Origin: a virus | Virus record (IMG/VR): IMGVR_UViG_3300034101_001224 | Coordinates: 1 to 37,166 of that record | Strand: one strand, 5' to 3' | DNA length: 37,166 nucleotides | In this document: positions 3,344 to 28,600 of the stretch, in pieces | Layout of the letters: each line of letters opens with the position of its first letter | How positions within the stretch are numbered: position 1 is the first letter of the stretch | The notes under the pieces: generated by a model | The model's database searches: none | What the model was told of the DNA's origin: nothing | The model's input: the letters and a program-made list of their open reading frames with translations, nothing else | Position numbers and translations under genes: made by a program

Positions 3344-3910
3344 ATGAAAAAGATCATTACGCTCCTCGCTGCATCCATGCTGTCTGTTTCTGCCTTTGCT
3401 GGTGGTTCCTTCCTTGGTGATACTACTACGGCCACGGCTATTGCCAACCCCATTGCCAATGCTACTTCTGTGAGCAATGCAACTGCGGTCGGTCATGCCT
3501 CAGCCGTCGTTGGTGTCGTCACCAATCAAGATCAAGTCCAAGGTCAGCTCCAAGGCCAGCAACAAGGCCAAAGCCAAACCAGCAAGCAAGCCAACACACA
3601 ATCCATGACTTATAATGAGTCATCGAATGTGCATTACAGTGGTAAATACACTGTCAAGACCAATGCTGCCGTGTTTGCACCCAATGCCTATGCTTCCAGT
3701 CCTTGTCGTATTGGCCTCAGCGCAGGTGTTAGCGTTGTAGGTCTGGGTCTGAGTGGTGGTGGTTCCGTTGAAGATGAGGGTTGTACCATGCGTGAGAATG
3801 CGCGTATCCTCAATTCTCTTGGTGCCAACGAGGCCGCCTTGCTGCTGATGTGCTCGGATGCTAATGTTGCTCGTGTGCTCAGTATCTGCCCACAACCTGC
3901 TGCTGAATAA
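3344..3910 (+). CDS. Exported low-complexity protein, 188 aa
   Basis: Residues 1-19 are a clear Sec signal peptide: positive N-terminus MKKI, hydrophobic core, and a cleavage site after SAFA. The mature part has an Ala/Thr/Asn stretch of repeated ATA/AN units, a Gln-Gly-rich patch (QVQGQLQGQQQGQSQ), then a compact C-terminal region with four cysteines, a Gly/Ser run and CTMREN. Two disulfides in the periplasm are plausible. The C-terminal pattern resembles a phage family of periplasmic proteins of unknown function. It lies alone between two leader hairpins, so expression may be separately controlled. It could be a periplasmic exclusion or envelope-modifying factor; a virion role is also possible. 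Confidence 0.75.
   Translation: MKKIITLLAASMLSVSAFAGGSFLGDTTTATAIANPIANATSVSNATAVGHASAVVGVVTNQDQVQGQLQGQQQGQSQTSKQANTQSMTYNESSNVHYSGKYTVKTNAAVFAPNAYASSPCRIGLSAGVSVVGLGLSGGGSVEDEGCTMRENARILNSLGANEAALLLMCSDANVARVLSICPQPAAE
3487..3496 (+). repeat. GGWCGGTCAT decamer, copy 3 (T form)
   Basis: Inside the exported-protein gene; read as (G)GTC-GGT-CAT, encoding VGH. Confidence 0.7.
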
Positions 3911-3924
3911 GTAATAAATCCAAG

Positions 3925-3951
3925 CGGCCTCTTAGTTGAGGCTGCTTCAGT
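3925..3951 (+). terminator. Possible terminator hairpin
   Basis: AAGCGGCCTC, a TTAGTT loop and GAGGCTGCTT form a 10-bp stem with one G-T wobble, soon after the stop of the exported-protein gene. The downstream tract (CAGTTTATTG) is only weakly T-rich, so termination may be partial. Confidence 0.5.
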
Positions 3952-3987: not shown

Positions 3988-4209
3988 ATGAAATGGGACT
4001 GGACTAAGGTTCTACTCATCTGTGGTTTGGTTGGTACTTGTGCTATTGCTTACTACCATGTACAAGGGATCAAACGTGAGGTAGTATGCCCATTAGGGCA
4101 GGATAAGTTGGTAACTGTCATTGTTGAAAAGAACAAAGTTACCTGTGTCTACACTAAAGAGCCATTAGGCTTACGGCGGAAATACACAAGGGAAATGTGG
4201 AATGAGTAA
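3988..4209 (+). CDS. Small membrane-anchored protein, 73 aa
   Basis: ATG at 3988 follows AAGGAG by seven bases, and that site is embedded in a hairpin. An N-terminal membrane segment (VLLICGLVGTCAIAYYHV) is followed by a basic, cytoplasmic- or periplasmic-facing tail with two cysteines. The small size and single anchor fit an early phage envelope protein; function unknown. The next gene starts eight bases before this one ends, implying coupling. Confidence 0.65.
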   Translation: MKWDWTKVLLICGLVGTCAIAYYHVQGIKREVVCPLGQDKLVTVIVEKNKVTCVYTKEPLGLRRKYTREMWNE

Positions 4210-4510
4210 GACCCGCTATTACATCATAGCCAAGTGCTATAATAAGCGCGGTGTGCTGATTGGTATGGGTACTAATGACTATAAGAAGTCACATCCATTA
4301 CAGGCATACTTCGCTAAAAGGGTCGGTCATCCTGAGCGTATCTTCCTTCATGCTGAAATTGCTGCTATACTAGCGGCTAGAAGTACCAAGATTCATGAAA
4401 TTCAGGTTGAACGTTATGACGCGGACGGACAACCAGTCTTAGCAAAACCGTGTCCAATATGTGCAGAGGCTATTAAGGCCTTTGGTATCAAGAAAGTGAG
4501 CTATACATGA
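4202..4510 (+). CDS. Cytidine/dCMP deaminase-fold protein, 102 aa
   Basis: Carries the zinc-deaminase signature: His50-Ala-Glu52 (LHAEIAAI) and Pro83-Cys84-Pro-Ile-Cys87 (KPCPICAEA). His50, Cys84 and Cys87 would hold the zinc, and Glu52 would be the proton shuttle. Members deaminate cytosine-containing nucleosides, nucleotides or other bases. At 102 aa it is a minimal fold. Possible role: making dUMP for the ThyX encoded at 21206. The substrate cannot be told from sequence, and phage deaminases of this type sit in varied contexts, including next to modification genes like those downstream. It overlaps both neighbours by a few bases and contains a GGTCGGTCAT copy. Confidence 0.75.
   Translation: MSKTRYYIIAKCYNKRGVLIGMGTNDYKKSHPLQAYFAKRVGHPERIFLHAEIAAILAARSTKIHEIQVERYDADGQPVLAKPCPICAEAIKAFGIKKVSYT
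4321..4330 (+). repeat. GGWCGGTCAT decamer, copy 4 (T form)
   Basis: Inside the deaminase-fold gene, encoding VGH at residues 41-43. Confidence 0.7.
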
Positions 4511-5018: not shown

Positions 5019-5232
5019 TCCACTTGAAACCAACATCACAGCAGACAATACCCGTTTTTGTATGTCTGATGATCCTGATTTAGTGTATGCCTATCTAAAA
5101 GAACTGGCACACGCATCAAATAATGGTATGTTCTTTGTCTGGTCTGTGGGCCAGAAAATCAAGGTCAAGAGTAGTATTGAGATTGTCCAGAAATATGCAG
5201 TCAATAACAAAGGTGAGGTACTGCCAGCATGA
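4999..5232 (+). CDS. Hypothetical protein, 77 aa
   Basis: I chose the ATG at 4999 because AAGGAGG (4985-4991) lies seven bases upstream; an in-frame TTG at 4978 has no such site. Acidic, cytosolic, beginning MFLITPDPLETNITAD. No recognised motif. It overlaps the amidotransferase gene by four bases (ATGA), so it may be translated with the modification block and could be its first member. Confidence 0.65.
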   Translation: MFLITPDPLETNITADNTRFCMSDDPDLVYAYLKELAHASNNGMFFVWSVGQKIKVKSSIEIVQKYAVNNKGEVLPA

Positions 5233-5843
5233 TCCTCTATTCAGCTTCCAAACGTGAATTACGCGACCCTTTCGGTCTGTTTGATGCAGTTGAGTATATT
5301 GAACATCCTGAAAATCTTACATCCGGGGCTTTGATTCTGTGGGGTGGTGAGGATATTGGTACAAGCCTGTATGGTGAGGCACCTAACAGCTTTTGTATGG
5401 GCTTTAAGCCTAGTATGCGTGATTATCGTGAATTACATCTGCTAGGACAGGCCAAAAAGCATGGGCTACCTGTTATCGGTATCTGTCGGGGTGCTCAATT
5501 GATGTGTGTCAAGGCCGGTGGTAAGCTGGCACAGCATATTAGTGGACATGGGCATTCTCATCGTGTTACACTTCATGATGAGGGTGGGGTAGAAATTACC
5601 TGTAATTCCTCACATCACCAGATGATGCTGCCAGACTCAACTGCCAAAATCCTTGCAACTGCCGGGCCTACTACAGGCTTCGGGGCACATGATGTACAGT
5701 ATGAGCATGATCGTGTCAATGAGGTTATATATTTCCCAACCTTAAACGGTTTAGGTATTCAAGCCCACCCAGAGTGGGATGATTGCTCTGCTGAGTTTAT
5801 TTCTTATTGTCGTCGTAAAATCAAGGAGTATCTGCATGTTTAA
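5229..5843 (+). CDS. Class I glutamine amidotransferase (peptidase C26/PuuD-like), 204 aa
   Basis: Catalytic triad visible: the nucleophile Cys86 in the elbow GICRG, and His180 and Glu182 in AHPE near the C-terminus. An oxyanion-type GGEDIG loop is near residue 40. The family either hydrolyses gamma-glutamyl bonds (PuuD-like) or releases ammonia from glutamine for a partner enzyme. Length fits a single GATase-I domain. It opens a block of overlapping genes that also encodes two amidoligases, a class II amidotransferase and an ATP-grasp ligase, so it may trim or recycle a gamma-glutamyl product. A CCTTAAACGGTTTAGG near-palindrome lies inside the gene at 5740-5755. Confidence 0.85.
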   Translation: MILYSASKRELRDPFGLFDAVEYIEHPENLTSGALILWGGEDIGTSLYGEAPNSFCMGFKPSMRDYRELHLLGQAKKHGLPVIGICRGAQLMCVKAGGKLAQHISGHGHSHRVTLHDEGGVEITCNSSHHQMMLPDSTAKILATAGPTTGFGAHDVQYEHDRVNEVIYFPTLNGLGIQAHPEWDDCSAEFISYCRRKIKEYLHV

Positions 5844-6261
5844 CTATGATGAAACCCTACCAGACCACATTAGTACCTTAATATGGGGTCTAGCCATTGG
5901 GCAAATGAAGGAGTTTGCTATAAAGTATGGAGTGGAGATTTATTATGATAATAATGATAAATCTTTATGTATCGGCGGTATTGCACTTCAGAATTTCCCC
6001 GGTGATTGTGGTGCTCTAATTCTTAATGGCGCCAACACTGCCACGCTGAAGTCACTAGCAATAGCTGAGGATTATGCCAGCCGTTCAGGCTTCAGTGTTA
6101 TAGTTGGTACAATCTGCGCGAAAGATGTCTCGTCTCAATTGGAAGTATTCAAAGCAGCAGGTTGGGAGGCTGTTAATTCATATGCCTCAAATCGTAATCC
6201 AGATAAAACCCATGTTGTTGTAGTGAAGCGCATCAAAAATTGTTTAAAGAAAGGATATTAA
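5836..6261 (+). CDS. GNAT-like acyltransferase, 141 aa (tentative)
   Basis: I chose the ATG at 5836, eight bases before the previous stop, with AAGGAG just upstream. The C-terminal half reads like a GNAT core: a helix (TLKSLAIAEDYASRSGF), a strand (SVIVGTI), a helix with AGWEAV, then NRNPDKTHVVVVKRI, matching the usual order of the second half of acetyltransferases. The classic acetyl-CoA loop (Q/RxxGxG/A) is not evident, so it may be degenerate. Sitting between an amidotransferase and an amidoligase, it could acylate the product or be a peptide-forming enzyme of the Fem/GNAT type. Confidence in fold moderate, in function low. Confidence 0.55.
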   Translation: MFNYDETLPDHISTLIWGLAIGQMKEFAIKYGVEIYYDNNDKSLCIGGIALQNFPGDCGALILNGANTATLKSLAIAEDYASRSGFSVIVGTICAKDVSSQLEVFKAAGWEAVNSYASNRNPDKTHVVVVKRIKNCLKKGY

Positions 6262-6262
6262 T

Positions 6263-7024
6263 ATGATTAAGTTTTCCATCGGGTGTGATCCCGAATTCTT
6301 TCTGACACAGAACAATAATTATAAGTCAGCGGTTGGCCTGATTGGTGGTAGTAAGTGGGCACCCAAACCAATCGACAAGGACGGTCATGCCATCCTTGAG
6401 GATAACGTAGCAGTAGAATTTAACATCGCCCCGGCCAGTACCTATGAGGCCTTCCGGGCTAGTATTCACAAGGTTCTTGACCATTGCCGGTCAATTTTAC
6501 CCGGCTATGAATTCAGCCATTCTAGTGCCATTTCTTTCCCTGAGGATGAACTAAATACACCACAAGCACAAGAGTTTGGATGTGAGCCTGATTATAATGC
6601 TTGGACTCAACGACGTAATCCGAAGCCACAAGCCAAGGATGAGAACTTACGCTCGGCAGGTGGGCATATTCATGTTGGTAATGATGTAGCTATTGAGCGC
6701 CCACTAGAGGTGATTCAGGCTATGGACTTGTTCCTTGGTGTCCCTGCTCATGTGTTGGACAATGGGGAATTACGTAAGGAACTCTATGGTAAGGCCGGAT
6801 GCTTCCGCCCGAAGCCATATGGTTGTGAGTATCGTACCTTATCCAACTTCTGGATTTGGGAAGACTCTCTTATTAAATGGGCCTATGATGGTACACAACG
6901 TGCCCTTGAATTTGTGGCACAGGGTAACAAATTGTCTGAAAAGGACGGTCATCTAATTCAGATGTGTATCAACAACAACGACCATGAGGCATACAAACAA
7001 CTGCAGGGAGTATATGCACTATGA
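6263..7024 (+). CDS. phiEco32-like COOH-NH2 ligase (amidoligase type 2), 253 aa
   Basis: Matches from memory the phage amidoligase family of the glutamine-synthetase/GCS fold. Metal/ATP-binding acidic motifs are GCDPEFF (Glu11) and EDNVAVEFN (Glu46 and Glu52). Histidines occur in RSAGGHIHVG (His135, His137), and a late GCEYRTLSNFW (Glu189, Arg191) fits the conserved E-x-R element. Such enzymes use ATP to join a carboxylate to an amine. The gene is in the middle of the overlapping block, two bases after the GNAT-like gene and overlapping the next by four. Substrate unknown. Two copies of the GGACGGTCAT decamer are inside it. Confidence 0.85.
   Translation: MIKFSIGCDPEFFLTQNNNYKSAVGLIGGSKWAPKPIDKDGHAILEDNVAVEFNIAPASTYEAFRASIHKVLDHCRSILPGYEFSHSSAISFPEDELNTPQAQEFGCEPDYNAWTQRRNPKPQAKDENLRSAGGHIHVGNDVAIERPLEVIQAMDLFLGVPAHVLDNGELRKELYGKAGCFRPKPYGCEYRTLSNFWIWEDSLIKWAYDGTQRALEFVAQGNKLSEKDGHLIQMCINNNDHEAYKQLQGVYAL
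6379..6388 (+). repeat. GGWCGGTCAT decamer, copy 6 (A form)
   Basis: Inside the first amidoligase gene, encoding KDGH. Confidence 0.7.
6943..6952 (+). repeat. GGWCGGTCAT decamer, copy 7 (A form)
   Basis: Inside the first amidoligase gene near its 3' end, again encoding KDGH. Confidence 0.7.
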
Positions 7025-7695
7025 CAGCAGCCAGAGCATGGACTAACCTTACGGATATGTTCAACCAAGATGATATTGTGGCCGAGATGACCAAGAAATA
7101 TCGTGATACATGGTTGAAACTTACCGTAAATAATAAAAGCTTTCTTGCCTACTATAAGTATTATGAGGCTGGCTATCACTACTTTAAAGATGAGCAAGGG
7201 GGTGACATCCGCCTGACAATGGATACTGATATTGATATTAATATCTTTATGCCTCGTCGTGGATTATACAATACCAAACATGGTGTTGTCTTTTTCGTTA
7301 GAAATCCCTTCCGCCAATATCGGCGCGGTATTAGTAAGGATAGTGCCTCTGCTACTCGTCTTTACTATATCCTGAATGGGCATGAGGTATATAACGAAAT
7401 GCCCCAACATATTTGGGACATTGCAAAAAAAGAACTACAAGAGCCTATGTCCTTAGACGAAGGTCTTCAAATCCTCAAAGAAAAAGGAGATGTCGCGCTA
7501 TCGCGTGAATTTGCTATCAGCTTGAATCATCTTAATGACGACCCAACTACAACTTCTCTGTTCTATGAGGATGTTTATATTGGCTCAATTAAAGATAACA
7601 AGATCAAGGTTATTACACCAATCTTGTATCAGGAAGTGATTGACAATTCCCATATTTGGGGTAAACATTACACTGTGGAGTTAGTAAATGGCTGA
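7021..7695 (+). CDS. Unknown protein in amidoligase block, 224 aa
   Basis: Overlaps the genes on both sides (ATGA with the upstream amidoligase, eight bases with the downstream one), so it is almost certainly co-translated with them. Tyr- and Asp-rich mixed alpha/beta protein with no cysteines, signal or membrane span. RNPFRQYRRG and a beta-rich C-terminus (VYIGSIKDNKIKVITP) are the only notable segments. I do not recognise the fold. Its fixed position between two amidoligases suggests a subunit, a carrier or the modified substrate. Confidence 0.7.
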   Translation: MTAARAWTNLTDMFNQDDIVAEMTKKYRDTWLKLTVNNKSFLAYYKYYEAGYHYFKDEQGGDIRLTMDTDIDINIFMPRRGLYNTKHGVVFFVRNPFRQYRRGISKDSASATRLYYILNGHEVYNEMPQHIWDIAKKELQEPMSLDEGLQILKEKGDVALSREFAISLNHLNDDPTTTSLFYEDVYIGSIKDNKIKVITPILYQEVIDNSHIWGKHYTVELVNG

Positions 7696-8788
7696 ACAAC
7701 AAGAAGTACCACAAATAATCTCAAAGATGTATGATTTCCCCGGACTTAATGTTAATCGGGAAAAACATATGGTCTATGAGAAAGGGAAAATCAACACATA
7801 CCCTATCTTACATCCAACTGCTCTTGTTGGTATCGAGATTGAGGTAGAGAATATCAGGGATATGGTTCCTGTTGATTTCTACTGGCAGTATAAAGAGGAT
7901 GGCTCTTTGCGTAATCATGGGGCTGAGTTTGCATCTATCCCGCTTCGTGGGAGGCAAGTTGAGTTTGCACTAGACTACCTGAATACACAGATGCATATGT
8001 TTAATGAGCCTGATTTCTCCAATCGTACTTCTGTACATGTGCATTTAAATGTACGTGATATGACATGGGATCAGATCAAAGTCTTTACTATTCTGTATGC
8101 TATGTATGAACGCCATTTCTTTCATCAAGCAGGTACAAAACGAGAATCTAGTATCTTCTGTGTCCCTTTGTATAAGACACATCAGTTACGTCATTTTATG
8201 GATAATCCAGATGGGTCGGCCAGCCAGTGGCACAAGTACAGTGCGGTTAACTTAGGTACAATTATAGGTAGTGAATCCTGCTCTAAATTTGGTACAATCG
8301 AATTCCGACATATGTATGGCACACTGGATACCAAGCTACTTATTAGTTGGATCAATCAAATTCTGTGTCTACGTCAGGAAATGATTAATACTACATTACC
8401 TGACTTACTGGACAAACTGAAGCGCACTAACACTACCTCTGAGTATATTGTAGATTATCGGCGTATCTTTAGGGAGTATGCTTTACCCTACTCTATTATG
8501 GAACAGGCAGACTTTGAATCATGTATCACTGCCACAAAACGGGCTGTGTTTTCTCGTGATCTTTACAAGTATAACACCTGTTTACGCCCCTCTGTGCTAT
8601 TTACCTACCAAGACCAGAAAAATACAAAACCAAAACTGGATAAGGAAAAGCTGATAACTGCATGGGAGAACGCCAAGGTCAAGGCACAACTACAACCTCA
8701 TAATGCAGGTCAATGGTTTGTTGGTAATATTGGCATGCCTAACCTCGAAGATGTACAGTTACAACCAGCAGTACCTACGGAGTTTTAA
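7688..8788 (+). CDS. Amidoligase (Amidoligase_2-like), 366 aa
   Basis: A second amidoligase of a different subfamily. The N-terminal metal motif GIEIEVEN (residues 48-55) is followed by KEDGSL...GAEFAS (70-83), TSVHVHLNV with His117 and His119, and FGTIEFRHMYGT with Glu205 and Arg207. This order (E-x-E, D-G-S-L, E-F, H-x-H, E-x-R) is that of the GCS/GS-like COOH-NH2 ligases of the putative amidoligase family. The longer C-terminal region is helical. ATP-dependent amide formation is the known chemistry of the fold; the substrates are unknown. Two different ligases in one block suggest two sequential additions. Confidence 0.85.
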   Translation: MAEQQEVPQIISKMYDFPGLNVNREKHMVYEKGKINTYPILHPTALVGIEIEVENIRDMVPVDFYWQYKEDGSLRNHGAEFASIPLRGRQVEFALDYLNTQMHMFNEPDFSNRTSVHVHLNVRDMTWDQIKVFTILYAMYERHFFHQAGTKRESSIFCVPLYKTHQLRHFMDNPDGSASQWHKYSAVNLGTIIGSESCSKFGTIEFRHMYGTLDTKLLISWINQILCLRQEMINTTLPDLLDKLKRTNTTSEYIVDYRRIFREYALPYSIMEQADFESCITATKRAVFSRDLYKYNTCLRPSVLFTYQDQKNTKPKLDKEKLITAWENAKVKAQLQPHNAGQWFVGNIGMPNLEDVQLQPAVPTEF

Positions 8789-8789
8789 T

Positions 8790-10043
8790 ATGTGTGGATT
8801 AATTGCAGCAATCTCTAAAGGTAATCAAGGTTTTGAATATAAGGCCGACCTTATCTTTACCCAAATGCTCTATGCCAATGCTCTACGGGGTATGGACAGC
8901 ACTGGCCTGTATGGTATCAATAAACATGGCAATCTTGATATGCTGAAGTCAGCGCAGCCTTCTGCTGACTTTATCCGTACCCCAGAGGCTAAGGAATTTA
9001 TTGATAAAATCTATATGAATTACCGGATTGTGGTCGGTCATAATCGTGCTGCCACAAAAGGTGCAGTCAAGGACGAAAATGCCCACCCCTTTATTGAAAA
9101 TAACATCTGCCTAGTACATAATGGTACGCTGTATAATCATAAACAGTTAAAGGATGTGGATGTAGATAGCCATGCTATTACTCATGCTCTGGCTGAGGGT
9201 AAAGCAGAGGATGTTATCCCAAGCCTTGATGGTGCTTTTGCCCTTATTTGGTATGATGCAGCAAAGAAAAAGCTGTTTATTACACGAAATAATGAACGGC
9301 CTCTTTATCTTGTGGAAACAGAGAAAACTGACTATATTGCCAGTGAAGATTCCATGCTAGAATGGCTGCTAGCCCGTAATGGCCACGCCAAGGTAACAGC
9401 TAAATACTTCAAACCACATCAGTTATACTCCTATGATCTTGATAAGCTGTCTGAAGGTTTTGATGTGGAGGAATTGCAAGAAAAAAAGCTATTACCAGTC
9501 GTGGAAAGAACAGTACCTCTACGGCTGGTGAGTCAATCACAACCACATGGCACAAAATCATCGGAGAAATGTTTCTATAAGTTCTATAAGTACGGGGACG
9601 TTATTCCGCTTGAATGGAAGAAAACACAGTATAATGGCGAACTAGTAATCATGCATGGTATTACTCTAGATAGCACAGAGACTGCATGGTCCTATGCCTG
9701 TAAGGCAAATGCCTATGATAATTACACTGGTGTTGATTCCTTCCTTGGCACAACAACAGGTGTTTCCTATAAGGATGGTAAGGCAACCCTGATTATGGGT
9801 TCCCTGAAACCGGAACAGTATCATGTATCTTGTAATGATGTCTGTGTCTCTGAGCTGGAGGTAATGAATCATAATGATGGATGTTGTGATCTATGTAATT
9901 CTATTATTGATTTTGATACTGAGCAATTCTGGGTTAGGTATAAGGGAGGACAACTGAAGACAGTGCACTGCGAATCCTGTGTAAGCAAGAATGGTAACCT
10001 GAAACATTTTCTAGAGAAAGCGAAAAATGATGCCACATTGTAA
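8790..10043 (+). CDS. Class II glutamine amidotransferase with zinc-ribbon tail, 417 aa
   Basis: Starts MCGLIAAI: Cys2 becomes the N-terminal nucleophile of the Ntn fold after Met removal, which fixes the start at 8790. Glutamine-site elements follow: RGMDSTG (33-39), GHNRAATKG (83-91), NAHPF (97-101) and HNGTLYNH (110-117). The last roughly 75 residues hold CNDVC, CCDLC and CESC pairs typical of a zinc ribbon. I see no synthetase domain, so ammonia is probably delivered to a separate partner such as the amidoligase or ATP-grasp enzyme next door. The zinc tail could bind that partner, RNA or a carrier. It overlaps the ATP-grasp gene by 17 bases and contains decamer copy 8. Confidence 0.85.
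   Translation: MCGLIAAISKGNQGFEYKADLIFTQMLYANALRGMDSTGLYGINKHGNLDMLKSAQPSADFIRTPEAKEFIDKIYMNYRIVVGHNRAATKGAVKDENAHPFIENNICLVHNGTLYNHKQLKDVDVDSHAITHALAEGKAEDVIPSLDGAFALIWYDAAKKKLFITRNNERPLYLVETEKTDYIASEDSMLEWLLARNGHAKVTAKYFKPHQLYSYDLDKLSEGFDVEELQEKKLLPVVERTVPLRLVSQSQPHGTKSSEKCFYKFYKYGDVIPLEWKKTQYNGELVIMHGITLDSTETAWSYACKANAYDNYTGVDSFLGTTTGVSYKDGKATLIMGSLKPEQYHVSCNDVCVSELEVMNHNDGCCDLCNSIIDFDTEQFWVRYKGGQLKTVHCESCVSKNGNLKHFLEKAKNDATL
9032..9041 (+). repeat. GGWCGGTCAT decamer, copy 8 (T form)
   Basis: Inside the class II amidotransferase gene; it encodes the VGH of the conserved GHNR motif. Confidence 0.7.
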
Positions 10044-10800
10044 TCGTGTAGTGATTATCCCCTACCTGCTTGGTTCTAACTCCGCCAAGGGGCTGCAAAC
10101 AGCCTTGCAGGGGCTACTTAATGTCCCTGTACTACGCGTATCCAAGTATAGCAAGAAGTATCAACCCCGATATACTGACTATGTAATTAACTGGGGATGC
10201 TCGAATCCTTGGGACTTTATCACCTTGGACAAGAAGGACGGTCATAAACAGGCCGTCAATAAGCTTCAATTCTTTCAAACGGCGCAGGGTAAAGTCAATA
10301 TCCCAGAGTGGACAACAAGCCAACAACAAGCACAGGCGTGGAGTGCTGCCGGTAAGACAGTGATTGGCCGCAAAATCCTTAACGGGAACTCTGGTAAGGG
10401 TATTGTTGTCTACGAACCAAACACTACTGTGGGGGAGTGCCCACTCTATACTCTGTATAAAAAGAAGAGACATGAGTTCCGTGTGCATGTTTTCAAAGGT
10501 AATGTGATTGATGTAGCCCAAAAGAAAAAGAAGAAAGGGTATGAGAATGTCGATAGCAAAATTAGAAACCACAAAACAGGATGGGTATTCTGCCGAGAAA
10601 ATATTATTGAGCCGGCGGGACTTCGTACTCAGGCTATTCAAGCCTTGGCTGCTTGTGGCCTTCCTTTTGGCGCTGTTGATATAATCTGGAATGAGGCAGA
10701 AGACAAGTGTTATGTGCTAGAGATTAATACTGCTCCGGGTATTGAAGGGAGCACTCTCCAGTATTATACCAATGCTTTTTTTAAGGATATTACAAAATGA
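10027..10800 (+). CDS. ATP-grasp ligase (RimK/glutathione-synthetase-like), 257 aa
   Basis: ATP-grasp features in order: Lys116 followed by the phosphate loop NGNSGKGIV (119-127); HEFRVHVFKG (149-158) with the E-x-R element; a lysine cluster in AQKKKKKG; GAVDIIWNE with Asp218; and LEINTAPG with Glu232 and Asn234 as magnesium ligands. The family activates a carboxylate as acylphosphate and joins it to an amine or thiol, often adding amino acids to peptides. A compact single-chain form. The start overlaps the amidotransferase by 17 bases; an adjacent ATG at 10030 is equally possible. It contains decamer copy 9. Confidence 0.85.
   Translation: MMPHCNRVVIIPYLLGSNSAKGLQTALQGLLNVPVLRVSKYSKKYQPRYTDYVINWGCSNPWDFITLDKKDGHKQAVNKLQFFQTAQGKVNIPEWTTSQQQAQAWSAAGKTVIGRKILNGNSGKGIVVYEPNTTVGECPLYTLYKKKRHEFRVHVFKGNVIDVAQKKKKKGYENVDSKIRNHKTGWVFCRENIIEPAGLRTQAIQALAACGLPFGAVDIIWNEAEDKCYVLEINTAPGIEGSTLQYYTNAFFKDITK
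10236..10245 (+). repeat. GGWCGGTCAT decamer, copy 9 (A form)
   Basis: Inside the ATP-grasp gene, encoding KDGH. Confidence 0.7.
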
Positions 10801-11534
10801 AATTTGAAGTAACAGAATACAATAAGGGTATTGGTGTAGAATCGCAAGACCTTGAGGTACAGTTTGCCTTTGCTGTTAAAGGGAAAGACGATACATACAC
10901 CAATATCTGTGACTTTAGCATCTGTCGTGATTTCCTTGGGGATGTTGTCGTAGCTAATGTTACAGGAAAATCATGTAGTATCTATGGGTTTTCTTATAAT
11001 CCAAAGAAACAGAAGAAGATGGACATGGCGCATACCTACCTAGCCTTGCGTAGTACCCCAGAGGTTCTACAGAGTTTCAAGGAAAACCTTAACCGTTTTA
11101 GGTCATGGTTAGGTAATATGATTGGTCATCATAATTACTTTAATATCATCGAAGTTGACACATCTGACGTTATTGTGGTACAATGTAATCCTTGGTGGCA
11201 AACAACAACTGTAGGTATTTCTTATCTATCCTATCTTTTCAAGTGTCTTTGCTGGAAACTACCAGAAGATAAAGCAAAGTTGTTTGATGCTATTCTGGCC
11301 CTTGAGAGTAAAGAAACCCCATGTAAAGAGGCTAGATATATCCGTAATTTAACCAAGGAAGCGCAGTACCTACTACAGAATCTGGAAAAACTCTCATATG
11401 CCCACACAACACCACATGGTTATCCAGAACTAGAACAGCACATTAGTAAAGTACATAATAACTCAGGTTTTAACTTTACCATTCAATGGAAACGTGATAC
11501 ACTTGCTGGTAAATTTATAGCGGAGATGGTATAA
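10797..11534 (+). CDS. Unknown protein of amidoligase block, 245 aa
   Basis: Overlaps the ATP-grasp gene (ATGA) and the next gene by one base. Soluble, with a beta-rich N-terminal half (LEVQFAFAVKGKDDTYTNIC) and a helical C-terminal half. Six cysteines are scattered without a zinc pattern. Family not recognised. The tight coupling points to a role in the same pathway. CCTTAACCGTTTTAGG at 11087-11102 resembles the early hairpin core but is within coding sequence and less symmetric. Confidence 0.65.
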   Translation: MKFEVTEYNKGIGVESQDLEVQFAFAVKGKDDTYTNICDFSICRDFLGDVVVANVTGKSCSIYGFSYNPKKQKKMDMAHTYLALRSTPEVLQSFKENLNRFRSWLGNMIGHHNYFNIIEVDTSDVIVVQCNPWWQTTTVGISYLSYLFKCLCWKLPEDKAKLFDAILALESKETPCKEARYIRNLTKEAQYLLQNLEKLSYAHTTPHGYPELEQHISKVHNNSGFNFTIQWKRDTLAGKFIAEMV

Positions 11535-11863
11535 TGGACTACCTTGATGTCACTGATATAGATAGTTGGTGTGCTGGTAAAAATGTATCAGGCCTAACTG
11601 CTGATGTACTTAATAAGTATAGTAAATCATATATAATCTCTAAAGTGCTTGAGGAAGGGGGGTCGGTCATCCTTGTGACTGTTAATGAGACAGAAACGGA
11701 AGTTATGGAGAAATTAAAAGAGTGGGGATTCACCAAAGGTAAATGGTTTAGGAATTGGGGGCATTCTGGCCGACGGACCTGTATATATACCTATCAAATC
11801 TCCAAGGAAGATTGGCTAGATGCAGGTAATACTATAGGTTCTTTTGATAATTGGGAATGGTGA
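11534..11863 (+). CDS. Hypothetical protein, possibly GNAT C-half-like, 109 aa
   Basis: Last gene of the overlapping block. Strand (SVILVTVNE), helix (VMEKLKEWGF), then GRRTCIYTYQI resembles the closing strand-helix-strand of acetyltransferase folds and loosely parallels the end of the protein at 5836-6261. It is too short for a complete GNAT. It ends in a Trp-rich acidic tail (GSFDNWEW). Decamer copy 10 lies in a different reading phase here. Function unassigned. Confidence 0.55.
   Translation: MDYLDVTDIDSWCAGKNVSGLTADVLNKYSKSYIISKVLEEGGSVILVTVNETETEVMEKLKEWGFTKGKWFRNWGHSGRRTCIYTYQISKEDWLDAGNTIGSFDNWEW
11661..11670 (+). repeat. GGWCGGTCAT decamer, copy 10 (T form)
   Basis: Inside the 109-aa gene but read as GGG-TCG-GTC-ATC (GSVI), a different phase from copies 3, 4 and 6-9. 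This argues that the DNA, not the peptide, is conserved. Confidence 0.75.
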
Positions 11864-13262: not shown

Positions 13263-13444
13263 CTAAACTATATGAAGTACCCAATAAAACATGGGTAGAA
13301 TCACTGGCTACTGGGCATAGATTTTTCTTTGACCATATTGACGGTATGTATTCTTATTGTAAAGAAGTAGGTGGTGGTATCAGTCATTACATAGCATGGA
13401 TGGAAGTCAAGATTAGTGAGGATCAAAATGTCGGGAAGGTGTAA
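13259..13444 (+). CDS. Hypothetical protein, 61 aa
   Basis: Overlaps the previous stop by four bases. Contains aromatic- and Gly-rich segments (GHRFFFDHIDGMYSYCKE) and no recognised domain. Translationally coupled to both neighbours; the next start is 17 bases before its end. Confidence 0.55.
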   Translation: MTKLYEVPNKTWVESLATGHRFFFDHIDGMYSYCKEVGGGISHYIAWMEVKISEDQNVGKV

Positions 13445-13598
13445 GGCTTGTAATGTTATCCTGACAGAACAGGAAATGTGCTCAACATACTCAGGTACAA
13501 TTGAATATCTTGATCTTTGTTTTAAATGCCTATCATTAGGTGAGGAAGGTGAGGATGACTTTGATGACCTATTTGAAGAGGAGCAACATGAAGAATGA
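13428..13598 (+). CDS. Small zinc-binding phage protein with acidic tail, 56 aa
   Basis: I chose the ATG at 13428, with GAGG about eight bases upstream; the in-frame GTG at 13416 is weaker. A CxxC pair near the N-terminus (CKAC) and a second pair (CFKC) form a probable zinc ribbon. The tail is a run of Asp/Glu (EEGEDDFDDLFEEEQHEE). It sits directly before the primase and overlaps it by four bases, so a helper role in replication is possible. Function not known. Confidence 0.65.
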   Translation: MSGRCKACNVILTEQEMCSTYSGTIEYLDLCFKCLSLGEEGEDDFDDLFEEEQHEE

Positions 13599-14329
13599 GC
13601 CATGTAATCAAGCACGAGACGTGCCCAAGGTGTGCAGCTAATGGTAGAGACAGGACTGGTGATAATCTGGCTATCTATGATGATGGCGGTAGTTATTGTT
13701 TTTCTTGTGGTTATTTCCAATCGGCTAGGGGTTTCCAATCTATTAGCAGAGAGGCAACTGGAACTGCAAAAACGCTTACTATTCCATATGACTGTACAGA
13801 CAGAATACCTGATGTCGGAAGAGAATTCCTTGCCAGATATTCCATTGGGGAATATGACCTTGCATTAAATAACATCCTGTGGTCTGAAAAATACCAACGC
13901 TTGGTCTTCCCTATTATTGTGGAGGGTGAGCTATTAGCTTGGCAGGGCAGATATCTAGGCACTGAACCAAAGAAAGCTAAATGGTTTACCCAAGGGGAGA
14001 TAGACAAGATTACCTATATATTAGGGAATCCTTATATGGAAGACCTTATTCTAGTAGAGGATATACTGTCAGCTATCAAGATTAGTACCACAGGAATACA
14101 TAGAGCAATGCCTATTTTTGGTAGTCATATCTCAGCTAAACGCCTCTTGACAATTAAACGATTTTGTGGTATGGAAATCACCATTTGGTTGGACAGAGAT
14201 AAGGCAAAAGAAGCAGTAGGCTTTGCCTATTTAGCACGGAATTTGGGGCTGAAAGCAAGGACGGTCATTACTGAAAAAGACCCAAAAGAGTATTCTAAGC
14301 AGGAGATTATAGAAATACTTGACAAGTAG
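13595..14329 (+). CDS. DNA primase (T7 gp4 N-terminal-like), 244 aa
   Basis: N-terminal zinc site Cys10-x2-Cys13 and Cys35-x2-Cys38 (CPRC, CFSC), as in T7-type primases, then a Toprim-like catalytic part with LVEDILSA (Glu155, Asp156) and IWLDRDKA (Asp200, Asp202). It would make RNA primers on single-stranded DNA. In T7, primase and helicase are one protein; here the helicase is a separate gene downstream. The promoter for that gene (14319-14347) lies over the last codons of this one. Decamer copy 11 is inside the gene in a shifted reading phase. Confidence 0.85.
   Translation: MSHVIKHETCPRCAANGRDRTGDNLAIYDDGGSYCFSCGYFQSARGFQSISREATGTAKTLTIPYDCTDRIPDVGREFLARYSIGEYDLALNNILWSEKYQRLVFPIIVEGELLAWQGRYLGTEPKKAKWFTQGEIDKITYILGNPYMEDLILVEDILSAIKISTTGIHRAMPIFGSHISAKRLLTIKRFCGMEITIWLDRDKAKEAVGFAYLARNLGLKARTVITEKDPKEYSKQEIIEILDK
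14259..14268 (+). repeat. GGWCGGTCAT decamer, copy 11 (A form)
   Basis: Inside the primase gene, read AGG-ACG-GTC-ATT (RTVI), the same phase as copy 10 and different from the rest. Confidence 0.75.
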
Positions 14330-14347
14330 GGAAAAGCATGTTATAAT
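14319..14347 (+). promoter_or_regulatory. Sigma70 promoter with extended -10 before helicase
   Basis: TTGACA (14319-14324), 17-base spacer, TATAAT (14342-14347), with TG at 14339-14340. A perfect consensus, overlapping the 3' end of the primase gene. An A/T tract (14342-14398) rich in TATATA follows, ending in AAGGAG at 14398-14403, the helicase ribosome binding site. Confidence 0.85.
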
Positions 14348-15866: not shown

Positions 15867-16107
15867 TATCCCTATTAACATTTCTATTGCCGCACCTAAC
15901 GAACAACGTGCAGTAAATGAGGTGTTTGATTTCTTACGGAAGGCGTATAATGAGTTTGGACCAGAGCACTGTGTCACAAATTGGGAATACTTTGAATTCA
16001 TTACTGAAGAGAGTGGTAACACTGGATGTGGAGACTACAACCCAACACAAGGGGGATGTGCATGCCCTACAGACAAAGTTAGTGACGATTCAGGTAAAGG
16101 TAAATGA
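15856..16107 (+). CDS. Small protein overlapping polymerase start, 83 aa
   Basis: Starts 11 bases before the previous stop. Residues 1-51 (MKYDIPINISIAAPNEQR to FEFITEE) read like a real small alpha/beta domain. The remaining 32 residues are Gly/Cys/Asp-rich and read across the first codons of the polymerase exonuclease domain in another frame, so they look like overrun. Either the overlap of about 95 bases is genuine, or a frame change joins this domain to the polymerase. Confidence 0.5.
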   Translation: MKYDIPINISIAAPNEQRAVNEVFDFLRKAYNEFGPEHCVTNWEYFEFITEESGNTGCGDYNPTQGGCACPTDKVSDDSGKGK

Positions 16108-17146
16108 TGAGAAGCCACTCATCTATACAAATGAAAATTTTAGAGACTGTATTCCTGTCCTCGCTAGTGCTTCCTGTATTGTTGGTACTAATCTTAAGTT
16201 TGATCTGGCTTGGGTATGGTCTATTCTCAATTGGAAGCCCACTACCATTTGGGACTTACAAATAGCAGAGTTCCTGTTCAGCAAGCAGATGTGGAAGTAC
16301 CCCGATCTCAATACCATGTGTTTGAACTATGGTCTGGAAACAAAACTAGACATTGTCAAGACAGAGTATTGGGAGAAGGGTATAGACACTGATGCAATTC
16401 CTATTGAAATACTCTCAGAGTATGGGGCACATGACTGCAACCTTACCTATGAGGTATTTAAACGTCAGGTAGAGCGATTCTGTGCGTCTGAGGGGCATAT
16501 GTTCAGGTTGTTCAGGGTGCAATGTAACGATCTTTTAGTGCTCCTTGAGATGGAGAATAACGGGATTGTATATAACTCTGAGAAATCTATAGCTTTTTCC
16601 AAGGATTTGGAAGACAGGATGAAGGAAGTAGAGGGGCAGGTGTATCAATTCACTCGTGGAGTACCTGTGAATCTTGGTAGCCCTGAGCAGGTGTCGAAGT
16701 TACTCTACGGTGGGCAACTGACAGTTAAGACACGGATACCTAATGGTGTATATAAGACTGGGGCTAAGACAGGCCAGATCAAGTATATGATTAAGGAGAA
16801 TGTGTTTGAGTTCCCACGCTTGGTTGAGCCATTAAAAGGCACAGAGAAAGTAAAAGAAGGTATCTGGGCCACTGATATGGATACTTTGGTATCACTTAAG
16901 GCTACAAAGCTCACTAAGCACCTGATAGGCCTCTTGCTGGAATGGTCTAAGCTGGAGAAGATGGTAACAACTTATCTGCTAGGACTACCAAAGAAGATAG
17001 AGAAGAATGATTGGCCTCCTAACATGCTTTTTAGCAGCCTAAATCAATGTTTAGCTGTGACAGGGAGACTGAGTAGTTCCAATCCCAACCAGCAAAATTT
17101 CTGCAAGGAAGTTAAGAAATTCTGTGAGAGTAGGTATGATAATTAA
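16013..17146 (+). CDS. Family A DNA polymerase, N-terminal part: 3'-5' exonuclease and thumb/palm start, about 377 aa
   Basis: I placed the start at the GTG at 16013, so the protein begins (M)VTLDVETTT with exonuclease motif I at Asp5 and Glu7, the same numbering as in T7 polymerase. An ATG at 15950 would give about 21 further residues of weak sequence. Exo II (TNLKFDLAW) and Exo III (YGAHDCNLTY) are present. The C-terminus carries LAVTGRLSSSNPNQQN, the conserved T-G-R-L-SSS-PN-Q segment that precedes motif A. The frame then stops at 17146, before motif A, which is encoded in the next ORF. So proofreading and template-binding parts are here and the catalytic palm is separate. Confidence 0.8.
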   Translation: MVTLDVETTTQHKGDVHALQTKLVTIQVKVNDEKPLIYTNENFRDCIPVLASASCIVGTNLKFDLAWVWSILNWKPTTIWDLQIAEFLFSKQMWKYPDLNTMCLNYGLETKLDIVKTEYWEKGIDTDAIPIEILSEYGAHDCNLTYEVFKRQVERFCASEGHMFRLFRVQCNDLLVLLEMENNGIVYNSEKSIAFSKDLEDRMKEVEGQVYQFTRGVPVNLGSPEQVSKLLYGGQLTVKTRIPNGVYKTGAKTGQIKYMIKENVFEFPRLVEPLKGTEKVKEGIWATDMDTLVSLKATKLTKHLIGLLLEWSKLEKMVTTYLLGLPKKIEKNDWPPNMLFSSLNQCLAVTGRLSSSNPNQQNFCKEVKKFCESRYDN

Positions 17147-17873
17147 CGTCGATTCAAAAAGCTTAGAGTGGTGTACTTATTTGTTCTTATCGCAAGACCT
17201 AACAGGTATTAAGGAGTGGGAAGGTGTTGTACTTGATCCATCTAAGAATGATATCCATACAGCGAATCAATTGGCATTCAAACTTCCATCACGCCTAATC
17301 GCTAAAGTATTTCTGTTTAGATGGATTTATAGAGGATCAGCCTTTGCTTATAGCAAGGACCCTGACTTTACCCCTGTATCAAAGTCTGTGGAGTTCTGGC
17401 AGGACGTAATTGATGTTTATTACGCCAAGTATCCTAAGTTGTACGATACCCACATGAGGTATATTAAGGAAGCCACACAGACGAGTAGGATCATAAGCCC
17501 TTTTGGTAGGGAGTATGTGTTTAGTCAGTACAAAAACAAAAGAGGAGAGATGCTGTGGTCTGAAAATGACATAACTAATTGGCCTAATCAAGGCTGTGGG
17601 GCAGATGTAATGGCAGTAGCCCGAATTGCTGCCTATCAACGTGTTAAACGAGCCGGACTAACAGGTAAATTAATCAGCACTGTCCATGATTCTATCGTAG
17701 CGGATGTCCCTGCTAATGAAAAGGATGAATGGTGTGGTATTTTTAATGAGGTCTTTATTGACTTACCTGAATTAATCACTAAATCCTATGGTGTGGAATG
17801 GAATGTACCTATGGTAGGTGAAGTTAGCTGTGGTCCAAACATGCTTGATCTAGAAGATGTTAAGTTCGCTTGA
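17136..17873 (+). CDS. Family A DNA polymerase, C-terminal part: catalytic palm and fingers, 245 aa
   Basis: The ATG at 17136 overlaps the upstream stop by 11 bases (ATGATAATTAA). It begins MIINVDSKSLEW, which is motif A (Asp6, Glu11, as D-x4-E in T7). Motif B/O-helix is PSRLIAKVFLFRWIYRG (Arg53, Lys57), NQGCGADVMA is the next conserved block, and motif C is TVHDSIVADV with His184-Asp185. The common HDE has become HDS. The catalytic aspartates are kept, so the pair of ORFs should form one active enzyme, either as two chains or by a +1 shift. A GTG at 17124 is an alternative start. Its stop is inside the -35 of the next promoter. Confidence 0.8.
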   Translation: MIINVDSKSLEWCTYLFLSQDLTGIKEWEGVVLDPSKNDIHTANQLAFKLPSRLIAKVFLFRWIYRGSAFAYSKDPDFTPVSKSVEFWQDVIDVYYAKYPKLYDTHMRYIKEATQTSRIISPFGREYVFSQYKNKRGEMLWSENDITNWPNQGCGADVMAVARIAAYQRVKRAGLTGKLISTVHDSIVADVPANEKDEWCGIFNEVFIDLPELITKSYGVEWNVPMVGEVSCGPNMLDLEDVKFA

Positions 17874-25604: not shown

Positions 25605-28600
25605 TTATTGTTTCTTTCCTACACCGAAGTTAAAGATACCCCTATGTTCTTTACGGAGATCAAGGTACTTCTTCTCCATTAAAACTTTATTAAGTACCGT
25701 CCAATCCTTGTTAGATTGTGCTAATTGTGAGAGTTTAGCCAGTTCAGCATCCCCCACAGAAGCAAAGGCAAGGGAATTGGTTAGAAGTTTTTCAACAGCG
25801 GCTTCATCATTACCTAGTTGTACATAGGCTTGAATATCCTTATTGAGCCTTTCCAGTTTCTCTTGTGTCTTATTACCATACAGGGATGTGTCAAGAACAC
25901 GACGCTCTATCTCCCTCTCCAATTTCTTGGATTGTTCCTTCTGCTTCTGCTGCTCTAGATATTTCTGATTATTTAGATCAGCATCCTTAGACCGCTCAGC
26001 ACTGCGAATATTACCAAAGGAAAACTCACCGGGTTGTTGTTTATGTAATACACGCCCAGTTTCACCTGAGATATTAACAGTATTGCCGCCAACCTTAGGT
26101 TTAAGATATTTGTCTTCGATCATACCACGAGCAGCTACAGGAGAAATAGCAAGGAGTTCCTTACCTTTCTCAGAGTCAGGTTCAGTGTCCCAAGAGTGGT
26201 TAGGATTCAGTCTCCGTGCAGCCGTCTCACCTATCTGCCCAATCTTACCGGCAGTGGGGAAACCTAGAACACTTGGTAAATTGTTATCACCAATAGTCCT
26301 TGCACCAAAACTAGGAGCTACACCTAGACCAACCTTACCCCATAGACCTTCAATAGCACCATCACCTACAGTCTGCCTAATCTCATTACGCAGTGAGAAA
26401 GTTTTACCATCCTTAGATTTAACATTATTGACTAACTTCTCAACTAGATCAAAGAAAGGTAGACCAACAATACCACCAAGAGCAGCCAGAGTTGTAAAGT
26501 AAGTCATAGCAGCCATAGCATCACTAGGAGACTTCTTAGAGTTCTTGATATACAGGAATGTCTGAGCGAGTTGGTTAGCAGCAAAGGACTGTAACCGGCC
26601 CATAGTATTACCTACAATACCATTCTCCGTGAACATACGGGCCTTGGCATCAGGACCATAATCCACCATGAAAGTCTCCGTGATCTCCTTGGCGCGAGAA
26701 GCTGCCTTCTCAACAGACATACCCTTACGGACACCTAGATCATACATAGAGGAGAACACAGCCCATCGCGCTGCCTGTTCAGAAGGACGGGATAACATAC
26801 CCTGCACTGCAAAGTCAGTGGCACGATTGGCAGCTTTGCTTTGAAACAGTGGAGTAGATTCAACAATAGTTGGATCAATAATCCCTGTCCGTTGTGCGAA
26901 CTCCATCTTAGTTTGGAAGGCCTTAGAACCGAAGTATTTACCCTGCTCAACACCAAAGAGTTTGGCAACCTCACTGAGTTGCTTACCTGCAAACACATAA
27001 GCATATTCAGCGGGGATTTTAGTTAGGGCAGAGGTTAAATCCATATAGTTCCCACGCTCTTTAAACAGGTGTGGGAAGATCACTGTAAGGGGCTGTACAA
27101 CGTTTTGTAGGGCATGTATAGGGGAACCCATTGATGTTAGCATTGCTGTAACAAGATTCCCTGATCTATTAGCAACCTGATTTACCTGTTGAGGACTCAT
27201 ACCAAACATATTCTCACCAATACCATGAGCAATAGTATCAACAAATGTCTTGGAAGACTTACCAATGACGTTAGAGTTGATGTACTCAGAGATCAGCGCA
27301 GCATTGTTAGGAGGAATACCAGATTCCATAACAGTCTTGTTTAGCTGGTTTGCCTTCTGTGCCGCTACCCAAGAGTAATGAGATTCTACTGTGTTAATCA
27401 AAGCCTTTTTAGCATCAAAATAATTGGTACGATCAGACTTAAGTGGGTTATTCCCAAGGTTACCTTCGTAACCTGTGTATTCCTTAAACCGATTATGGAC
27501 ACCTGAAGCAGTATAAGCTTGACTATCAATCTGCCTTGTTAATTCCTTACCAAGGGCCTGAACCTGTGGATCAGCATCTGTAAGAAGATCGAGCATGTAT
27601 TGATAGTTAGCAGCCTTGACTTCATTCACATCACCAAACTGGTTGTTACCCCAACGTGAGTCCTGATACCTACCACGAACCTTAATAGGGGATGTTTCAT
27701 AACCTTTAAGGTTTAGGTACTGTTGCATAGCCTTCAGTTGAAACTTGTTGTGAGCACCATATAGAACAGGCCTACCCTCACTAGTCTTAACCTCAATGTA
27801 CCACTTACCATCGTGGATTGATGGGATATAGTTAGGTAGTTCTGTTATTTGTTTATTCTCAGGTAGGAAAGATTGAATATCCTCCAACATGGATGTAAAC
27901 AGTTTTTCTTTCAGTGCATGTACTTTCTGCTGGGCAGGAGTTAGATTGAATTGAAAGTTAGGATCATCTTTAGCCTTGAACCATTGCTTGACTAACTCAG
28001 CACCCCCACCCGGACCAAAGAGAGTCTCTAGGTGAGTCATAGAGTTAATAAGACCTGTCTTAGCTTCAAACAGGGCCATCTCTGCCTTACGCGCATTCTC
28101 GTCAATTGTGTTCTTTAGATAACGGTAGGCTATCTTTAAACCCGGATTGTTGGAGAACTCGGCTGGCATGTAGCCACCGGGCATGAGTGTCTTGCGGTAG
28201 AGGCCAAAGTTATTAGGTGAATCCTCTGATGTCTTGAGTGACTCAATAACCTGTTCAGGTGAGATAGTCTCAAGTTTAATACCACCAAGATCATCAGTTT
28301 TAGTTAGACCTTTGGCTAGTTTGACATTGGTTATCTCTTGCTTTGCTTTATTGCCACGCTCTTGCCATAGCGCATCAATATCAGCACTAGAGATGTCAGG
28401 AGAAAGCTCACGTACACGTTTAGCAAAGTCATCAAACTTCTCCTCCTTAACAAAGAACTTGAAAGCACCTTCTTGTCCCTTCGGATTGAAGGTATGCTGG
28501 ACAGCTCCAGTTGTATTCTCCCCACGCGCTTCATAGAGGCCACGCCCATAGGCATCACTAGGTTGTAGGATACCCATCTGTTCCATACCACGACCAAACT

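Follow-up and report, generated by a model that had tools for sequence, protein, structure and literature searches.

What might a virus build with nine overlapping genes that encode three ligases, two glutamine amidotransferases (GATases) and a set of proteins without a recognised family? The question is raised by IMG/VR virus record IMGVR_UViG_3300034101_001224, a sequence of 37,166 bases, classed as linear and possibly a fragment, which we analysed over its whole length (the window). The genes form a dense block on the + strand at positions 5229-11863, and all nine genes of the original prediction are present, each overlapping or abutting the next (Table 1; proteins without a known family are called by the first position of their genes). 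That prediction treated the block as an unexplained set. It is in fact the phiEco32/LUZ24/RIO-1 cassette, which has already been published with a cell-wall hypothesis and is not new. We hold with high confidence both to this identity and to the view that the genes serve one pathway.

Its genes are likewise found side by side in PaP3, Salmonella phage 7-11, kuravirus SU10, CW02, CVT22, IME271, a Cellulophaga crAss-like phage and a Leptolyngbya phage, and a paper of 2017 uses the name "peptidoglycan modification cassette" and lists phiEco32, 7-11, PA11, tf, MR299-2, LUZ24, PaP3 and CW02 (PMC5498523). When 50,697 phage records were searched by tblastn, the four core genes returned matches in similar numbers and with a nearly equal make-up of host genera: 305 for the second amidoligase, all to annotated amidoligases, 315 for the COOH-NH2 ligase, 310 for the ATP-grasp enzyme and 337 for the class-II enzyme (GATase II), the last including Bas88-Bas91, kuravirus-like BASEL phages that infect laboratory E. 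coli. IMG/VR yielded at least 541 confirmed COOH-NH2 ligase loci, 80 of which were kept, and the full locus set comprises 113 loci (the window and 112 relatives), or 105 after removal of near-duplicates. All four core genes are found in 93 of these 105, the 12 exceptions being ten short loci (<12 kb) and two long ones (L021 and L100), and in every one of the 18 reference loci. Gene order is as in the window in L002, L003, L005, L006, L011, L013 and L016, and the pairwise divergences of six genes are correlated (r 0.52-0.81, a level reached in 0 of 500 permutations), the pattern expected of joint inheritance, to which plain vertical descent contributes in part. A search of 84,980 bacterial and archaeal genomes turned up just 12 loci, every one of them on a contig of a metagenome-assembled genome, and some so small that they could be viral strays; with a search of this sensitivity, the pathway looks virus-only.

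Judged from the sequences, the active-site residues of both GATases and all three ligases are intact, and the prediction of two amidoligase subfamilies beside both GATase classes (a Cys86 triad and an N-terminal Cys2) is borne out by family matches and by catalytic positions kept across the families. In 16 phages, 21 columns of the COOH-NH2 ligase, of type 2, are invariant, with E11, E52, H135, H137, R171, R182, K184, E189 and R191 among them. The second amidoligase reaches 18.6 bits with Pfam Amidoligase_2, under the cut-off of 22, and keeps G48, E50, E52, D71, S73, E80, H117, H119, Y184, E205 and R207 invariant in 18 phages. Profiles of these two glutamine synthetase (GS)-like ligases gave no match to a solved structure, and their fold is taken from their Pfam and PHROG families. 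GATase II matches phrog_4736 (8e-68), and its structure matches are limited to the glutaminase domain of GlmS, PurF and AsnB; its corrected start, the ATG at 8790, puts Cys in second position, a requirement of the class. In the window and in L002, L003, L006, L014 and L017, this protein ends in a Cys4 ribbon (CxxC...CxxC), which follows a variable region and lies where the synthetase domain would stand.

Because of the conserved order, the co-inheritance and the intact active sites, we conclude, as originally proposed, that the genes share an amide-bond pathway. Separate occurrence of the genes in relatives had been named as a finding that would speak against this; the core genes stand together in nearly every relative, an outcome that favours the pathway. 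The rival view that unrelated metabolic genes accumulated by chance in a mobile early region would fit the habit of phage early regions of collecting unrelated small genes, and the 5836 gene, the 11534 gene and the flanks do vary between loci. The integrity of the core across the dereplicated and reference loci already contradicts it, however, and leaves it scarcely credible.

Both ammonia supply and the trimming of gamma-glutamyl bonds had been considered for the block as a whole. Its first enzyme, which has a class-I GATase fold, scores 61.9 bits for Pfam Peptidase C26 against a cut-off of 20.5, with PF07722 at 1e-16 versus 7e-6 for GATase, and its triad of Cys86, His180 and Glu182 is kept in 11-12 of 12 relatives; to PuuD, the sequence similarity is weak (E 1.7e-5). 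Because it is closest to gamma-glutamyl hydrolases (Peptidase C26), it is more likely to remove a gamma-glutamyl group than to supply ammonia. This C26 enzyme was found in 88 of the 105 dereplicated loci. Whole-record searches of the 18 reference phages, among which the window and L006 are contigs and possibly incomplete, found C26 only in seven, GGCT only in seven, both in four and neither in none; if the two were independent, this lack of overlap between their absences would have P 0.010, uncorrected for kinship. GGCT was not detectable anywhere in the window in a whole-window search, and six other reference cassettes are likewise without it. A negative association was again seen in 64 long loci (counts of 2, 8, 42 and 12; P 0.0008), which belong to related phages and were also left uncorrected for kinship. 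We take C26 and GGCT, another enzyme that cleaves gamma-glutamyl bonds, to be alternative means of taking off a gamma-glutamyl group, and since 18 of 18 genomes hold one, the other or both, the pattern suggests that a gamma-glutamyl intermediate is removed during the pathway.

Ligases paired with such removers are known from putrescine breakdown (PuuA/PuuD), from butirosin (the ATP-grasp BtrJ with the GGCT-type BtrG) and from Campylobacter phosphoramidate synthesis. The PuuA/PuuD pair resembles the cassette in joining a GS-fold gamma-glutamyl ligase to a C26 hydrolase that removes the gamma-glutamyl group, and differs from it in having no second amidoligase, GATase II or ATP-grasp enzyme. These pairings, the occurrence of C26, GGCT or both in the phages, and the best NCBIfam match of the C26 enzyme (gamma-glutamyl-CDP-amidate hydrolase, 9e-9, under that model's cut-off) are all consistent with a soluble small molecule, namely a gamma-glutamyl peptide or amide that would serve the phage, for example against host defence, with the gamma-glutamyl group as temporary protection. 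However, we identified no transporter, carrier protein or tailoring enzyme that the loci share, and no PADLOC model was matched, although these models describe bacterial defence and not phage counter-defence; the same search led us to reject a known anti-phage defence system as the identity of the block. We regard a soluble product as rather unlikely.

The ATP-grasp enzyme had been called RimK-like. The resemblance holds, in that its family profile matches 7qyr, a RimK alpha-L-glutamate ligase and its nearest solved relative, at 2e-16, and E232, N234, K79, D218 and R152 are invariant. It falls under the curated cut-offs for RimK itself (Pfam, 17.9 versus 21 bits; TIGR00768, 18.8 versus 143), so that membership of that family does not follow. 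RimK ligases modify ribosomal protein S6, and the cassette could by analogy act on protein, its ATP-grasp enzyme and amidoligases adding or amidating residues on a host ribosomal, RNA polymerase or translation protein, with C26 or GGCT editing the tag. Early or middle expression, described below, would suit such a host takeover, and the barrel-containing 7021 partner could present a protein substrate. Two GS-like ligases and two GATases nevertheless exceed what tail glutamylation needs, the Pfam cut-off for RimK is missed, and no conserved substrate-like protein adjoins the cassette in all phages. Hence, modification of a protein is in our view unlikely.

The 7021 protein is, as a new finding here, a near-constant fifth core gene of the cassette. 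It is present in 86 of the 113 loci, sited between both ligases, and its family, which PHROGs splits into phrog_11055 and phrog_4877, is united by iterative profile search. A tblastn search against phages gave only chance-level matches in jumbo phages (E 0.4-0.9), and IMG/VR scans with the single 7021 and 10797 proteins gave nothing, so that profile and synteny searches were needed. Structure prediction, which had been put forward for the unrecognised proteins, was carried out for 7021 and 10797 with AlphaFold2 from alignment rows of IMG/VR and genome-contig loci only. The model of 7021 is confident (predicted local distance difference test, pLDDT, 91.7; predicted template modelling score, pTM, 0.85), and Foldseek matched it locally in the PDB to SH3-like barrels alone (the C-terminal domain of biotin protein ligase, Tudor and Hfq; best E 0.01, probability up to 0.99), with full-length matches in a viral library to uncharacterised viral proteins that include the CW02 protein in the same slot. 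Conserved positions are few and scattered, with no obvious catalytic residues, and we infer that 7021 is probably a binding or scaffold protein and not an enzyme. In the long loci, the 7021 family also shows a strong anti-correlation with GGCT (counts of 2, 13, 42 and 7; P 5e-7), which is confounded by relatedness.

Also new here is the 10797 protein, which represents an undescribed accessory family with a confident fold (pLDDT 88.4, pTM 0.88). The model has no PDB match at E<=0.001 and the family none in Pfam, PHROG or NCBIfam; it numbers 44 copies in 38 loci of the 113-locus set (34 of the 105 dereplicated loci), with His220 and Gly224 invariant and Cys43 kept in 38 of 39 sequences. Two tandem, divergent copies are often found at the cassette end, as at 8800-9471 and 9477-10139 of L002 and also in L065, L068, L069, L090 and L094. 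The way in which the loci were collected does not account for the link of this family to the cassette, since 10797 as sole query led to the locus of the Leptolyngbya phage, a cyanophage, which then proved to hold the cassette. One could imagine from these two families a virus-only pathway to a novel gamma-glutamyl-protected amide or peptide metabolite, in which 10797 would be a new enzyme fold (His220, Cys43) that adds a step and 7021 the scaffold, a proposal that we consider distinctly unlikely.

The two remaining proteins are more restricted. The 5836 gene, with its start corrected to the ATG at 5836 (AAGGAG upstream), had been thought to encode a GNAT-like protein. This identity was rejected, as no GNAT family match was detectable: the protein matched nothing in Pfam at E up to 10, nothing in PHROG and nothing in a tblastn search of phages, and its relatives, detectable only in L022 and L027 in the same slot, gave in the same Pfam search no match and DUF6870 at 0.095, respectively. 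The 11534 protein has no relative in the 113 loci, and its membership of the pathway is uncertain.

The closest likeness is to the Manatee Spring podovirus MW202697 (L002), which carries C26, the COOH-NH2 ligase, 7021, the amidoligase, GATase II, the ATP-grasp enzyme and 10797 in this order, differing in its tandem 10797 copies and in being without the 5836 and 11534 genes, and otherwise a full match. The cassette of RIO-1-like podoviruses (PSA-HP1 ORFs 40-47; RIO-1, CW02, phiEco32, 7-11, PA11, tf, MR299-2, LUZ24 and PaP3) shares with the window two amidoligases, an ATP-grasp enzyme, a glutamine amidotransferase and a gamma-glutamyl-cleaving enzyme (PMC5498523), as well as the position before primase/helicase and, in CW02 and 7-11, a 7021-type protein between the ligases. 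In contrast to these reference cassettes, to which protein identities are ~20-45%, the window has C26 with no detectable GGCT and closes with the 10797 family, of which those phages yielded no member. A crAss-like arrangement (Cellulophaga phage phi14:2, L009; L054, L075 and others) likewise holds both GS-like ligases, GATase II and the ATP-grasp enzyme, but in the order GGCT, ATP-grasp, (C26), COOH-NH2, GATase II, amidoligase, with no detectable 7021. In the PaP3/7-11/SU10/LAh9/Lyrsu02 group, a protein of ~73 residues is encoded between GATase II and the ATP-grasp enzyme (L004:8704-8922, L005:9197-9421, L011:10401-10619, L013:12635-12868 and L016:11331-11552); it is absent from the window, where these two genes overlap. 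Mycobacteriophage Marvin, for which a paper cites an amidoligase and a GATase, was considered as a cassette with a mycobacterial host and rejected, there being no match to the COOH-NH2 ligase, amidoligase or ATP-grasp profiles.

When the cassette acts is indicated by two relatives. In PSA-HP1, it is expressed first (PMC7082346), and in PaP3 the cassette falls within ORF22-25 and ORF32-48, whose expression is highest at 10-30 min, in mid-infection (PMC4707531). Such early or middle expression points to action on the host cell and not on late virions, whose modification it disfavours. Nucleobases had been listed among possible targets, and ligases that build an amino-acid adduct on a base would suit the location of the cassette, which in most loci is immediately ahead of the genes for primase/helicase and polymerase; amidotransferases also serve in the DNA-modification pathways of other phages. 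However, DNA of the cassette-bearing LUZ24-like phage U17 is cut by 11 of 16 restriction enzymes, while three other phages alongside resisted 7-10 (PMC11945000), DNA of tf is cut by HaeIII and was sequenced by Sanger chemistry (PMC3517423), and no base-modifying gene recurs next to the cassette. DNA modification is unlikely given this cleavage, and hypermodified bases as the product are highly improbable.

The best overall explanation, to which we give somewhat better than an even chance, is a single early or middle pathway that builds an amide-linked, gamma-glutamylated product, with wall peptide as the leading target. The nine-gene run would be made together early or in mid-infection, one GS-like ligase joining glutamate via its gamma-carboxyl to an amine, as PuuA does. 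GATase II would free ammonia from glutamine, with which the partner amidoligase would amidate a carboxylate, and the RimK-like ATP-grasp enzyme would extend a free carboxyl end by an amino acid. The C26 hydrolase, or GGCT in other phages, would take off the gamma-glutamyl group, in deprotection, turnover or editing; 7021 may bind the substrate or tether the ligases to one another, and 10797 may add a lineage-specific step. The target would be a cell-wall precursor peptide, and the altered wall of the infected cell would block later phages or time lysis.

Wall peptide as the target is a guess, possible rather than probable. Iyer 2009 and Hardies 2013, as cited in later papers, are said to have proposed a cell-wall precursor peptide. 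The wall proposal was repeated in 2025 for LUZ24-like phages, with prevention of superinfection or endolysin targeting as purposes (PMC11945000). We rank the wall first, before a soluble metabolite and then protein, because hosts are diderm among the matches listed and the published proposals agree. Several points weigh against this explanation. We found no experiment in the literature on the product of any cassette, and no wall-biosynthesis gene among the recurrent neighbours, those identified being replication genes; the substrate of the nearest solved ATP-grasp relative is the C-terminus of a protein and not a wall peptide. One cassette (L072, on the 65-kb contig G002) lacks C26 as well as GGCT and, if the contig is complete, is an exception; both the C26/GGCT pattern and the co-divergence of genes were computed without correction for phylogeny.

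Table 1. Genes of the cassette in the window, with the matches or residues that characterise them.
Feature	Position	Strand	Evidence
Class-I GATase-fold hydrolase, Peptidase C26 type (gamma-glutamyl hydrolase-like)	5229..5843	+	PF07722 1e-16; Cys86/His180/Glu182
5836 protein, 141 aa, lineage-specific accessory	5836..6261	+	no Pfam/PHROG match
COOH-NH2 ligase type 2 (GS-like amidoligase), core	6263..7024	+	PF14395 4e-11, above cut-off; phrog_3815 5e-77
7021 protein, near-constant fifth core protein, SH3-like barrel in fold	7021..7695	+	phrog_11055 2e-7
Second GS-like amidoligase (Amidoligase_2-like), core	7688..8788	+	phrog_7469 5e-39
Class-II glutamine amidotransferase, glutaminase domain only, Cys2, C-terminal Cys4 ribbon, core	8790..10043	+	PF13522 2e-18
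ATP-grasp ligase, core; nearest solved relative RimK-type alpha-L-glutamate ligase	10027..10800	+	phrog_2599 1.5e-74
10797 protein, new accessory family of the cassette	10797..11534	+	no Pfam, PHROG or NCBIfam family
11534 protein, orphan, 109 aa	11534..11863	+	ATG overlaps stop of 10797 gene

Around the block, the + strand of the window carries helicase, DNA polymerase A, exonuclease and ribonucleotide reductase genes, and the virion genes lie on the - strand. The strongest nearby terminator-like site of the + strand is upstream of the block at 3922-3947; it follows a gene at 3344-3910 for an apparent secreted protein with a signal peptide, a Gln/Gly-rich stretch and no Pfam match. Downstream, at 14319-14347 between the primase-like and helicase genes, lies a sequence that fits a sigma-70-type promoter perfectly (TTGACA, 17 nt, TG-extended TATAAT), and the weak consensus matches between these two sites are uninformative alone. 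A small deoxycytidylate deaminase-like gene (4202-4510; phrog_174, 1e-13) stands shortly upstream of the cassette and has relatives in 9 of the 113 loci. The primase-like gene downstream (13595-14329) belongs to a family found in 75 loci, and a short Cys4-ribbon protein directly before it (13416-13598) has relatives in 47. Further along, the family-A DNA polymerase is split across two overlapping reading frames (15917-17146 and 17124-17873), with part of the Pfam model absent between them, which could reflect a natural division of the gene, a programmed shift or an error in assembly. Two large proteins encoded on the virion strand (25605-29531, 1308 aa; 33746-35443, 565 aa) have no PHROG match.

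With more than 300 sequenced isolates, upwards of 541 metagenomic loci and essentially no cellular copies, the cassette ranks with the more widely distributed sets of biosynthetic genes seen in virulent phages that infect Gram-negative bacteria. Guesses about its product go back to 2009, and the parts list given here, with a fifth gene, an accessory family and two alternative gamma-glutamyl-cleaving enzymes, makes the question testable. If the cassette does provide a virus-only biosynthetic route, whether to a changed wall, protein or metabolite, this would account for an early stage of infection by common phages of Pseudomonas, Escherichia and Vibrio.

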